Positions 9,358 through 12,915 of a stretch of DNA of 61,346 bases are shown piece after piece. A program made the translations under genes and the position numbers. The stretch lies in the NCBI GenBank assembly GCA_947259355.1, contig CAMYMF010000011.1, positions 1 through 61,346 on the forward strand, given 5' to 3'. Origin of the DNA: an uncultured Nitrospirota bacterium (lineage in GTDB: Bacteria; CG2-30-53-67). Under the pieces are notes generated by a model, which worked only from the letters and a program-made list of their open reading frames with translations, was not told the DNA's origin and ran no database searches. Positions within the stretch are counted from its first letter, which is position 1. The number at the start of each line of letters is the position of its first letter.

Positions 9358-11385
9358 TCAGGCCGATCGATGCCTCGCTTCCAGCGAATCGATCCCTTCG
9401 ATAATGAGTTCGCTTTCCCGTTTTCTCTGCTCGGCCTCCCGAAAGAGGGTTTCTACCATTTCGGCCACCAGGTGCACCCCCTGCATGACACTCTGAAAAT
9501 CGCGGGCCTGATGGACGTTGGCGCTGGCAACTTCATCGGTGAGCTGGCGCATCCGCTCATTGGCCTCTGCCATGAGACGACTCCCTTGACTCTGCTCCTC
9601 AATGCTCCGGGTGATGTCGTGAATCATCTCGTTAACGGTATTGAAGGCCCGGGTGACCAATTCGGTGGTTCCGACCTGTTCGCGGGTCGATCTTTCGATT
9701 TTGAGCGTCATACTCCGCGAACTGCCGGCGCTCTTTAAAATCTGGCTCAATGCGTCGCCCGACTTCTGCGACAGGTCCATACCGGAATCGACCTGTGCCG
9801 GAATCGACTCTATCATTGAGACCGTCTCCGCCACCTGTTCCCGGACGGATTCGATCATCTCCTCAATCTCCCGGGAGGACGATGCTGTCTGTTCCGAGAG
9901 GGCCCGTATCTCATTGCTCACCACAGCGAATCCCTTGCCGTGCTCTCCGGCCTGTGCGGAGATGATCGCGGCGTTCAGCGCCAGCACGTTGGTCTTTTCA
10001 TTGATCGCGTTGATCACCTCGAGGACGTCTCCGATCTCCTGCGTCTTGGCGGCGAGTCGCTGCATCCGTGCCGCGGCTTCATGGACCGTCTTTTGAATAG
10101 ACCCGACGCTCTTGAGGGACTCCTGGACCAGTGTGACGCCCTGCTGGGCATCCTTTTCCACCTGCTCCGATAGGGCATTGGAGTGCTTCGCGTGGGATTC
10201 AACCTCCCGGATCGAAAATTCCATTTCCGTGGTCGAGGAGACCGTGTTCTGCGCTTCGTCAGAGAGGGTGTTGACGCCAGAGGCCATGTGAGACATGGCC
10301 TGGGACATCTGGTGCACCGACGCGGCCGTTTCATTGACCATGGCCGACAACCCCTGGGAATTCTCCGCTACTTCCTGGATTTTGTTGGCGATGGTGCGTG
10401 AGCTTTGCGACAGGTCCCGTATGATGGCGGAGAGTCTCCCCTTACGGTCCAGAAGCTGTTCGTGATTACGGCCCAACTCATCATGGAGGCGGTTGACGCC
10501 CTGATACAGAGAGATGTTGGTCAATGCGGTGGAGCCCTGATCCGCCAGAATCTGCAGGGTGGAAAGCTCCTCGGTGCGAATGGCTCGACGCTGGTGCTTG
10601 TGATCAACCGCTATCAGCCCGATGGGCTCTCCCCGTTCCCGCAAGGGAATGCATGCAAAGGAGCGAGACCGAAGTTCGGGCATGGTCCTATACGGGGCGC
10701 CGAGTCTGAACTCAGCAGGCATCTCCGACACGTCCAAGATCTGATAGACCCGGTTGTCCCGGATGGTTTTGATCAAAGCCCCCGCGGGGTCGCTCAAGGG
10801 GATTTGGATCTTCTGCCAACTGCTTCCGGCGTGACCCTGAGCTTCGCAGCACGTCAGGACGTCCTTGTGCTGATCGAGCAGAAAGATATTGACCCGGTCG
10901 AAATTCAGGACCCGGTGTGCCCCGTCCGACAAAAGTTGCAGCACCTGTGCCCGGGTGACGGATTTCTGAATCTCCGCGCCGATCTGATAGAGACTCGACA
11001 TATCGTGCTGCAGCCCGTTAAACCGCCCTTCGAAATCCTGTTTCTGCTCCTCGATGCGGGCATGCACCTCCCGGAGCTGGGCCGCCTTTTCACGGTCCCA
11101 GTCGAATCCCCGTCCAACCAGATAACCTGTAATCCCCATTATCGCCGAGGTGCCGAACCCCATGTAGAGATAGATCAGAATTTGATGGGGCGAACCCACT
11201 ATTTGCACTAAGAAAGCGGCCACCGAGAGATGGGCTGGACGGAAGAAGACAAGCTCGATGAGCAGCCACCCCAGGGGCGCACCGATTCCCATCAGGACTC
11301 CGTCGACAGCAAAGGAGACCCGCCTGTGGGGAGACCAGCCTGTGAGTCGCTCGTAGAGAGTCTTGTAAAGGCGCATGCCGGTCAA
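9358..11385 (-). CDS. GAF-domain methyl-accepting chemotaxis-like transducer
   Basis: 675-residue membrane signal transducer. Three or four hydrophobic segments span residues about 25-95 ([20 protein letters not shown] and [20 protein letters not shown] are clear). A coiled coil follows, then a GAF domain at about 140-300 ([21 protein letters not shown] through [13 protein letters not shown]), then a long helical signalling domain. The MCP hairpin tip is visible as [39 protein letters not shown]. The usual E-A-A-R-A-G-E is altered to I-S-A-Q-A-G-E. No CheB/CheR recognition tail or HAMP is obvious. Its tip should interact with a CheA/CheW complex, but no che genes are in the window. It is convergent with the TIM-barrel gene. 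Confidence 0.85.
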
Positions 11386-11725
11386 GGGTAACGAATATCC
11401 TGGTAAAGAAAAGCCATTTCAATGTATTCGGGAATCTATAAAATATTATACCCCGGAAACCTCTTTTCGGGCGAACATTATTCTGCAGAAAATGAGCGTC
11501 TGGCCCCCACGGTTGCGCAAGTACTCGTCATGAGACACCTCGTAACGGCCAGAGGCGCCACGGGCAAGGTGCAGCCCGATTGCTTCCCGGTGTGCCAGGC
11601 TTTGCATCCAACGTCCGGTCACGAATTCTTTCGGCATGCGCGGAGAGAGGGGCTCTCACCTAGAAACCAAAAACCATAGATATCAGGAGCTTACTATAGA
11701 TTAAAAGAAATAATACCACTCTATA
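11386..11725. other. non-coding stretch between the transducer gene and the riboswitch promoter
   Basis: Open frames here (for example 11446-11637 on the minus strand) lack ribosome sites and recognisable motifs. The last 60 bases become AT-rich, unlike the GC-rich coding DNA around them, and lead into the promoter at 11726. I see no gene. Confidence 0.5.
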
Positions 11726-11755
11726 TTGACACAAACGCCTTATACTGCTTATAAT
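11726..11755 (+). promoter_or_regulatory. consensus sigma70 promoter for the riboswitch leader
   Basis: TTGACA at 11726-11731 and TATAAT at 11750-11755, both perfect matches, with an 18-base spacer. Transcription would start near 11762, directly before the GEMM-like aptamer. This agreement of promoter and aptamer position supports both calls. Confidence 0.85.
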
Positions 11756-11765
11756 TTAGAAAAAC

Positions 11766-11856
11766 GTGCGATCCAACGACAAGGGCAACCCAACAAGGGG
11801 AGCAAAGCCGCGGGCCATCAACCATCAAAGGGCATCCGGGGCTGCCGAAGTGGATA
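11766..11856 (+). promoter_or_regulatory. c-di-GMP-I (GEMM-I) type riboswitch aptamer
   Basis: The conserved GEMM-I blocks are visible in order: AAGGGCAACCC (11781-11791), a short hairpin CCC-AACAA-GGG, GCAAAGCC (11802-11809), CGGGCC (11811-11816), and the 3' block GGGGCTGCCGAAG (11838-11850). The closing P1 stem is ATCCA (11771-11775) with TGGAT (11851-11855). The class binds c-di-GMP; a variant with A at the position called G20 binds 3',3'-cGAMP. Aligned to the Vibrio Vc2 aptamer from memory, the equivalent base here is the middle G of AGGGC, which favours c-di-GMP. The GNRA tetraloop common in P2 is replaced by AACAA. The ligand has not been shown. Confidence 0.8.
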
Positions 11857-11937
11857 GGACGACCTCAAACCTATCCCGGAGCTTGTCCGACGGATAGGAA
11901 GCTCTCACGCCTATCCTGAATTCTGTCGATGGATAGG
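11852..11937 (+). repeat. three GGATAGG and two CCTATCC segments forming alternative hairpins
   Basis: GGATAGG occurs at 11852-11858, 11892-11898 and 11931-11937. CCTATCC occurs at 11870-11876 and 11910-11916. Spacing between successive GGATAGG copies is 40 and 39 bases, and the flanks are partly similar (CTC inside the loop; a T-T/C-T-G-T-C-C/G-G-A stretch between units). Register 1 pairs copies 1-2 and 3-4 (11-base loops). Register 2 leaves the first copy in riboswitch P1, pairs CCTATCC 11870 with GGATAGG 11892, and CCTATCC 11910 with GGATAGG 11931. It looks like the expression platform of the riboswitch. Confidence 0.75.
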
Positions 11938-11943
11938 CTTTTT
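11909..11943 (+). terminator. intrinsic terminator of the riboswitch
   Basis: GCCTATCC (11909-11916) pairs with GGATAGGC (11931-11938) around a 14-base loop. Five T follow at once (11939-11943). The 5' arm is the same CCTATCC that the preceding GGATAGG can capture, so the structure can be switched off by the competing hairpin. Confidence 0.75.
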
Positions 11944-11973
11944 CATCGTTATTGTTGTTGAGGGGAAAACTTT

Positions 11974-12066
11974 GTGGCAGACGCAGCTCGCAGAAAGAGG
12001 GGTACGAACACGGCCCCGACTCGGAAAGCGCGTCACGCACGGAATCGGATTTCCGTGTCGACATAG
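11974..12066 (+). CDS. possible 30-residue Arg-rich leader peptide
   Basis: A GTG at 11974 has GAGGGG 8 bases upstream and opens a 30-codon frame ending in TAG at 12064. The product would be very basic (M-A-D-A-A-R-R-K-R-G-T-N-T-A-P-T-R-K-A-R and a further RHARNR-type stretch). It is the first good ribosome site after the riboswitch terminator and lies 187 bases before the HD-GYP gene. No homologue is recognised. It may equally be chance. Confidence 0.3.
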   Translation: MADAARRKRGTNTAPTRKARHARNRISVST

Positions 12067-12085
12067 AGTTCTTCCTCCTCCTCCT

Positions 12086-12140
12086 GACAGGTCGGCGGGC
12101 TTGTCCTGCCGGCCTGTCCCACCTTCTCAGGTCTGAGAAG
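12086..12140 (+). other. two stem-loops in the HD-GYP leader
   Basis: GACAGG (12086-12091) pairs with CCTGTC (12113-12118), with further G-C pairing inside. Directly downstream CTTCTCAG-GT-CTGAGAAG (12123-12140) is a perfect 8-bp hairpin. Neither has a T-run. They may stabilise or occlude the leader RNA before the HD-GYP start. Confidence 0.4.
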
Positions 12141-12252
12141 ACCCTCTTCTCATTTCCGACAGGATTTTCTGGACCCGCACCGCCGGTTCTGCTATCTTGG
12201 GACCCGCAGATTCCACCCCCCATTCGCCCGATGGCACTAGCAGGTTATTCGA

Positions 12253-12915
12253 ATGCCGGCACGTAGGACATCTCAACACAAGCGCTCGGCCCGGATTTTG
12301 ATGGGTCTTCTGGAAGCCAAAGACCAGGCCACGGCGGAGCATTCCCGCAACGTGGCGCGACTTGCCCTCCAACTGGGCGCATCCTGCGGGCTCAAGAAGA
12401 CGGAGCTGGCAGAGCTGGAGCTGGGTGCACTGTTGCATGATGCAGACAAACTGAACGTTCCCGATGATATTTTTGATAAACTACGACGAGGAGCGCCGCT
12501 AAGCGAGGAGGATCTGCGCATCCTCCGCGAGCATGCCTCACTGGAAGGGGAGATTCCTTTCGTAAAGGAAATGCCACACGTGGTGCGGGACTGCCAACAG
12601 CTCCACCACGAAAACTACAATGGCTCCGGCACGCCCCATGGATTGAAGGAAGACCAGATCCCGCTGTCCGTCCGTATCGTACAGGTGGCCGACACCTTCG
12701 ATGCCCTAACGCTGAACCTGCCGGGACGGCGCGGCCAATCAAGACACGAAGCGCTCCTGAGCCTCAAGGACTATGCCGGTACGATACTGGACCCCCACCT
12801 GGTCGCGCAATTCATCGAGTTGATCCGGTCCCCGTCGGCTTACCCAGAGCCCCCTGAGCGCTCTTCAAAACAGGCGGCCCGACTCCCAAGACAGGGCGGC
12901 CATAAAGAGCCCTAA
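12253..12915 (+). CDS. HD-GYP-type phosphodiesterase domain protein
   Basis: 220-residue stand-alone HD-GYP-like domain, a family that hydrolyses c-di-GMP or 3',3'-cGAMP. Visible ligand positions: EHSRNVARLAL (first His), LLHDADKLNVPDDIFDK (the HD-x-x-K set), LREHASLEGE, HHENYNGSGTPHGL (HH pair) and VADTFDALT (Asp). The signature differs from the usual HHExxDGxGYPxGL: D is N and GYP is GTP. HDIGK reads HDADK. Metal ligands are kept, so catalysis remains possible. The C-terminal 30 residues are proline- and basic-rich. An in-frame TAG at 12238 fixes ATG 12253 as the first possible ATG; its ribosome site is weak. It lies downstream of a c-di-GMP-type riboswitch and terminator, which implies feedback control by a cyclic dinucleotide. 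Confidence 0.85.
   Translation: MPARRTSQHKRSARILMGLLEAKDQATAEHSRNVARLALQLGASCGLKKTELAELELGALLHDADKLNVPDDIFDKLRRGAPLSEEDLRILREHASLEGEIPFVKEMPHVVRDCQQLHHENYNGSGTPHGLKEDQIPLSVRIVQVADTFDALTLNLPGRRGQSRHEALLSLKDYAGTILDPHLVAQFIELIRSPSAYPEPPERSSKQAARLPRQGGHKEP

Follow-up and report, generated by a model that had tools for sequence, protein, structure and literature searches.

A GEMM-I-type riboswitch with five alternating platform segments, probably orphaned by loss of its target gene, in an uncultured Nitrospirota bacterium

The c-di-GMP-I riboswitches (RF01051) are exemplified by Cd1 of Clostridioides difficile, in which a three-helix junction with a 6-nt J1/2 ending in G20, together with A47 and C92, forms part of an OFF-switch whose ligand-stabilised P1 competes with an antiterminator, and in which a tetraloop on P2 is required for binding (PMC9262584). 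In the published junction map, J1/2 comprises six nucleotides up to the G20 equivalent, J2/3 is the A47 equivalent, and J1/3 ends at the C92 equivalent (PMC6274999). A lengthened expression platform with more than one hairpin behind a single aptamer has been described for the Bc1 c-di-GMP-I riboswitch, where both hairpins are terminators (PMC11218506). The 3',3'-cGAMP (GEMM-Ib) riboswitches of Geobacter have the same fold and carry an A at position 20. Chains of alternating complementary segments, in which the parity of pairing decides on termination, are known from amino-acid attenuators and pyr anti-antiterminators.

The element described here is located in a contig of 61,346 nucleotides from an uncultured Nitrospirota bacterium (GCA_947259355.1, CAMYMF010000011.1), the whole of which is referred to as the window. 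It resembles Cd1 in its junction, in its three pocket positions and in its predicted OFF logic, and departs from it in a P2 of only 5 bp without a GNRA loop, in an RF01051 score of 29.5 of the 35 bits needed, and in two extra complementary segments. As in Bc1, a single aptamer precedes a lengthened platform, but no T run follows the extra hairpin, and identical 7-mers serve as its segments; the attenuators and anti-antiterminators have fewer segments and respond to other signals, and the Geobacter switches differ at position 20, which is G in the window. Taken as a whole, the element is likely to be a GEMM-I-type transcriptional OFF-switch with a short P2, probably responding to c-di-GMP, with a duplicated module in its platform, and probably orphaned.

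Table 1. Features of the switch and its surroundings (window coordinates)
Feature	Position	Strand	Basis or remark
Sigma-70-type promoter TTGACA-N18-TATAAT	11726..11755	+	12/12 consensus matches; -35 at 11726-11731, -10 at 11750-11755, 18-nt spacer
GEMM-I (c-di-GMP-I-like) aptamer, short-P2 subtype	11768..11859	+	RF03167, RF01051, subtype model R1
P1 5' strand ATCCA ("segment 0")	11771..11775	+	Pairs with TGGAT 11851-11855; alternative partner TGGAT 11930-11934 in unit 5
J1/2 ACAAGG, last G at pocket position G20	11779..11784	+	Alignment A1; junction map of PMC6274999; G11 = G20 in PMC9262584
P2 apical region: short CCC/GGG stem, irregular loop, no GNRA tetraloop	11791..11798	+	Sequence and alignment A1
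Extra module of ~40 nt (unit-linker-antiunit-loop), putative diverged copy of 11892-11930	11852..11891	+	Shuffling and linker scores
Unit 1 GGATAGG	11852..11858	+	GGAT shared with P1 3' strand TGGAT 11851-11855
Unit 2 CCTATCC	11870..11876	+	
Unit 3 GGATAGG	11892..11898	+	
Unit 4 CCTATCC	11910..11916	+	
Unit 5 GGATAGG	11931..11937	+	
Hairpin 2-3, CCTATCC-CGGA-gcttg-TCCG-ac-GGATAGG, 11 bp, no T run after it	11870..11898	+	Predicted p 0.98, whether or not the ligand bonus is applied
Intrinsic terminator GCCTATCC/GGATAGGC, 8-bp stem and T5 (11939-11943)	11909..11943	+	Predicted p rises from 0.01 to 0.98 when the ligand bonus is applied
30-codon frame with GTG start, preceded by GAGGGG, in the position of the SQR gene	11975..12067	+	Two same-genus genomes compared
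Inverted repeat TGACAGGTCGGC..GCCGGCCTGTC	12085..12118	+	Directly after SQR stop codon in sister genome
HD-domain protein (HD_5, HD-GYP-like)	12253..12915	+	Pfam HD_5 2.7e-29; G005 homolog follows SQR

The aptamer and its structural subtype

The perfect promoter pointed out in an earlier note on this DNA is the sole promoter-like site found by a scan of 11650-12300, and its TTGACA and TATAAT boxes are kept in the ortholog of a same-genus genome (G001). The same note had the aptamer start at the first transcribed bases; it begins about 7-9 nt downstream of the expected transcription start, while its c-di-GMP-I-like nature is borne out by the junction and by the Rfam matches. The best-scoring model, and the only Rfam match over 11700-12000, is RF03167 (c-di-GMP-I-GGC), with 38.2 bits (E 9.8e-8 for 301 nt) against a gathering score of 59, and position 47 is G in its consensus (GCGAAG) and A in the window (GCAAAG). 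The RF01051 search that had been proposed does return a clear match (E 1e-3 per genome), which falls short of the gathering score. No riboswitch family reached its gathering cut-off in the Rfam scan of the window, and since the element scores below both thresholds, Rfam rules would leave it unannotated.

Close relatives of this aptamer occur in genomes of the same family, within a sample of only eight genomes of the phylum: one copy each in G002:C129 (CAKKPE010000129.1), G004:C35 and G003:C16, and two in G005 (JAJRUP010000048.1 and JAJRUP010000193.1), besides a decayed copy in G001:C180. With 27-39 bits, these relatives are likewise below the Rfam cut-offs. A subtype model built from them, R1, gives the window aptamer 89.4 bits, the window being itself one of the six training rows. 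The intact copies share P1 (ATCCAmCG..CGAAGTGGATA), a P2 of 5 bp whose loop is irregular or UNCG-like (AACAAG, ATTACG, GTCACG, and UNCG-like TGCG/TTCG in alignment A1), and a P3 with a conserved AT bulge; the GNRA tetraloop which in c-di-GMP-I docks from P2 onto P3 is absent from the subtype alignment. The window aptamer has the P1-P2-P3 three-way junction with its 6-nt J1/2. Over the six distinct sequences, standard pairs fill 94% of the pair cells, a proportion that drops to 30-45% when the partner strand is slid, and three pairs are altered on both sides, a modest covariation given the small sample and an alignment fitted to the structure. Judged by its sequence, the element is a GEMM-I aptamer belonging to a small structural subtype without a GNRA loop on P2. 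No copy of the subtype motif was found in viral contigs.

The pocket letters of the window, G20 (J1/2 ACAAGG), A47 (GC-A-AAGCC) and C92 (CTGC-CG), are those of the c-di-GMP set, from which we infer that c-di-GMP is probably the ligand. Binding is not assured, since P2 lacks the tetraloop that Cd1 needs. cGAMP had also been considered and was set aside, the window having G20 whereas the cGAMP type has A20.

Separate copies with A20 exist elsewhere in the same genome, at G000:C4 and G000:C19 (CTCAGAGC; CTCAGAGCAAACC). The former belongs to a locus, L006, with GEMM-I-type aptamers in tandem at 1290-1389 and 1501-1587 (G000:C4 7435-7534 and 7646-7732), of which the first has G20, as in the c-di-GMP type, and a terminator of its own, and the second is of the cGAMP type (CTCAGAGCAAACC). 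Similar pairs are seen in G000:C19, G002:C144, G002:C35, G003:C29 and G005:C50, and such tandems may be a conserved two-signal arrangement.

Origin of the platform and loss of the target gene

Downstream of the aptamer, three GGATAGG and two CCTATCC segments alternate strictly and end in a T5, with the 3' strand of P1 lying inside the first of them (Table 1), all of which agrees with the earlier description. As the + strand of the 61-kb window holds only four GGATAGG and five CCTATCC in total, five of them alternating within 86 nt are not a product of chance.

It had been suggested that this arrangement may be an unusual relay design, an idea that would be refuted if close relatives had lost the alternating 7-mers. 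The five-unit form is found in a single genome and is absent from those relatives, which, when intact, have three segments, TGGATA(A/G)GG, CCTATCC and TGGATAGG, followed by a T run; this is an ordinary antiterminator/terminator exchange. The idea of a design is further weakened by signs of a module duplication, by the broken pocket of the same-genus copy and by the disappearance of the regulated gene. The stretches 11852-11891 and 11892-11930 can be aligned with one gap, and the likeness of their linkers and loops was reached or exceeded in 166 of 20000 shuffles. Moreover, the first linker of the same-genus copy scores 7 against the 3-4 linker of the window and 1 against its 1-2 linker. Tandem Repeats Finder detected no array because the linkers have diverged and indels separate the copies, and the duplication was assessed by alignment and shuffling. 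The simplest account of these sequences is that one module of about 40 nt (unit, linker, antiunit and loop) would have been duplicated in an ancestral three-segment platform; with one pair added, the segment count stays odd, so that the logic of the switch would be left intact. A literature search on multi-segment relay platforms found nothing.

Enlargement of a platform by serial hairpins is seen again at another GEMM-I locus of the family, where one c-di-GMP-I aptamer is followed by near-identical CCGAACC/GGTTCGG terminator hairpins in series, three at L062 and L068, two at L042, and one at L048, L049 and L057, their number varying between sister genomes.

In G002, G004 and G005, the switch lies directly upstream of a gene for a type III sulfide:quinone reductase (SQR; NF049943, 556 bits vs a cut-off of 525), after which come, in G005, the inverted repeat CTCCTCCTGACAGGCCGGCAGG..GCCGGCCTGTC and an HD-domain gene. 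In the window and in G001, the switch is followed by about 140 nt and then by the repeat and HD gene just described (in the window, NF053512 at 106.6 bits, under the cut-off of that model), the SQR gene being missing between them. No SQR homolog at E <= 1e-10 is present anywhere in the window's genome or in G001 (assemblies 90% and 93% complete). In G003, the switch, about 30 nt and the repeat precede unrelated genes, and the SQR-like genes remaining in that genome are just 35-36% identical. This synteny without SQR indicates that the gene was deleted from behind the switch in the genus of the window (g1), and also in G003. The 30-codon frame at its place was examined as a candidate regulated gene and rejected, the changes between two same-genus genomes being mostly nonsynonymous by inspection; it is probably not a gene.

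The aptamer of G001 has lost its binding pocket, cmsearch placing a 4-nt deletion in J1/2 and an ungapped reading breaking G21-C46 instead, and its third segment is degenerate; the copy lacks usable units 3-5. In this ortholog (L089), hairpin 1-2 is directly followed by T9; to judge from these letters, the former antiterminator appears to have turned into a terminator while the aptamer decayed. A switch that decays once its target is gone would look like this. In the window, the deletion of an SQR gene which the switch precedes in sister genomes would have orphaned the element, which is probably now heading for decay. A literature search on orphan or decayed riboswitches found nothing related.

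Type III SQR genes right behind a c-di-GMP-I-like OFF-switch are observed at L055 (529-1785), L059 and L083, and a literature search on c-di-GMP riboswitches and sulfide:quinone reductase found no such link among the papers listed. The divergent neighbour of the switch in the window encodes a GAF-domain methyl-accepting chemotaxis protein (9358-11385, - strand).

Predicted folding and competing readings

As in an OFF-switch, the 3' strand of P1 is shared with the antiterminator and the terminator is separate from the aptamer, features taken from the letters and from computation. All folding models agree with the proposed ligand-off logic. A ligand holding P1 would keep unit 1 engaged, hairpin 2-3 would form, and unit 4 would be left to pair with unit 5, causing termination at T5. 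In the ligand-free state, unit 1 would leave P1 and take either unit 2, after which 3-4 would pair, or unit 4 around hairpin 2-3; the freed 5' strand of P1 could cap unit 5, a further pairing that the models predict and the earlier scheme lacked, and the terminator could not form.

At equilibrium, with the ligand mimicked by a bonus of -8 kcal/mol on P1, the probabilities are 0.99 for P1 and 0.98 for each of 2-3 and 4-5. In the ligand-free calculation, 1-4 (0.97) encloses 2-3 (0.98), unit 5 is capped by the 5' strand of P1 (0.98), and the terminator falls to 0.01, with a similar outcome at 20 C. Hairpin 2-3 is therefore present in both ligand states, which gives close to an even chance to a nested exchange in which it would be a constitutive, inert insert and unit 1 would choose between P1 and unit 4. 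As the modelled transcript grows, P1 holds at 11856-11862, gives way to 1-2 at 11877-11885, comes back at 11899-11905 once 2-3 can form, and gives way again to 1-4 from 11917. Against such a nested exchange, conversion of 1-2 plus the CGGA/TCCG hairpin into 2-3 faces a barrier of about 8.8 kcal/mol (only bonus-free barriers were used, those with the ligand bonus being unreliable as the saddle search seems to ignore it), and few kinetic runs arrive at 1-4.

A second possibility, which we regard as appreciable though tentative, is that the element is already a non-functional relic, ligand control having been abolished by a C-to-A mutation beside ATCCA in P1 and a G-G mismatch in P3. The window does deviate at positions that do not vary among the other loci, its target gene is lost and its ortholog has decayed; however, it retains G20, G21-C46, A47 and C92 as well as almost every pair, and the folding model still switches. 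The folding kinetics were modelled by a base-pair Monte Carlo with ViennaRNA energies, stems of at least 4 bp, P2 and P3 fixed, and assumed rates and ligand energies. Without ligand, the terminator formed in 0% of window runs, as in those of the relatives in G004 and G005 (Dive96), and in 40% of those of G002. With ligand, it formed in 98-100% of runs for the three-segment relatives, and for the window in 35-45% at a k0 of 1e5/s, in 58-92% at 1e6/s and 30 nt/s (12 runs each), and in 87-95% at 1e6/s, 20-50 nt/s and a stronger bonus. Given the low figure in the slower-folding runs, the five-segment form may be leaky. A greedy Kinwalker-like fold was discarded as threshold-dependent.

The two-step relay proposed in the earlier note, in which P1 would decide between 1-2 and 2-3 and these in turn between 3-4 and 4-5, is rather unlikely as a selected device, and so is the associated idea that the extra step is kept for a changed threshold, timing or noise. 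In its favour, the ligand-free kinetic runs end mostly in 1-2 plus 3-4 with the 5' strand of P1 on unit 5 (36/60 and 33/40 trajectories), and the 7-mers stay identical despite the divergence of their linkers. At equilibrium, however, the 1-2 plus 3-4 state has a ligand-free probability of only about 0.02, disfavoured because CGGA/TCCG lengthens 2-3 to 11 bp. An orthogonal 2'/3' pair introduced in silico still switches, from 0% terminator without ligand to 90% with it, so that the relay is possible and not required. The restriction of the five units to one genome, the decay of the same-genus copy and the loss of the target gene also argue against selection. The relay and the nested exchange are compatible with the computed output, both blocking the terminator in the ligand-free models. 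The succession of five segments truly exists in the sequence and makes a plausible folding path, at a locus that is probably losing its function.

It is doubtful that the switch, instead of being an orphan, controls the HD gene by read-through of the hairpin at 12085-12118, in a c-di-GMP feedback. This gene is the next one on the same strand, the hairpin has no T run, and SQR and HD genes are syntenic in G005; yet some 310 nt between are untranslated, three genomes retain a promoter-like CTGGAC-18/19-TATnTT just upstream of the HD gene (by inspection; the promoter scan did not call it), and the G001 aptamer decays although its HD gene stays intact. It is equally unlikely that a hairpin-module duplication created a six-strand domino, in which the 5' strand of P1 would hop from unit 1 to 3 to 5 during transcription and P1 would gain a second period to re-form and bind ligand. 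The reading we favour remains that of an OFF-switch with a duplicated platform module, from which function is probably being lost.

Significance of the locus and its relatives

Together with its relatives, this locus shows the fate of a switch once its gene is gone. The sister genomes show that a platform can grow by duplication of a unit/anti-unit module without a change in logic, and the related loci reveal a GEMM-I subtype that slips past the Rfam cut-offs. These loci also suggest that type III sulfide:quinone reductase is under c-di-GMP control in this little-known group of bacteria.
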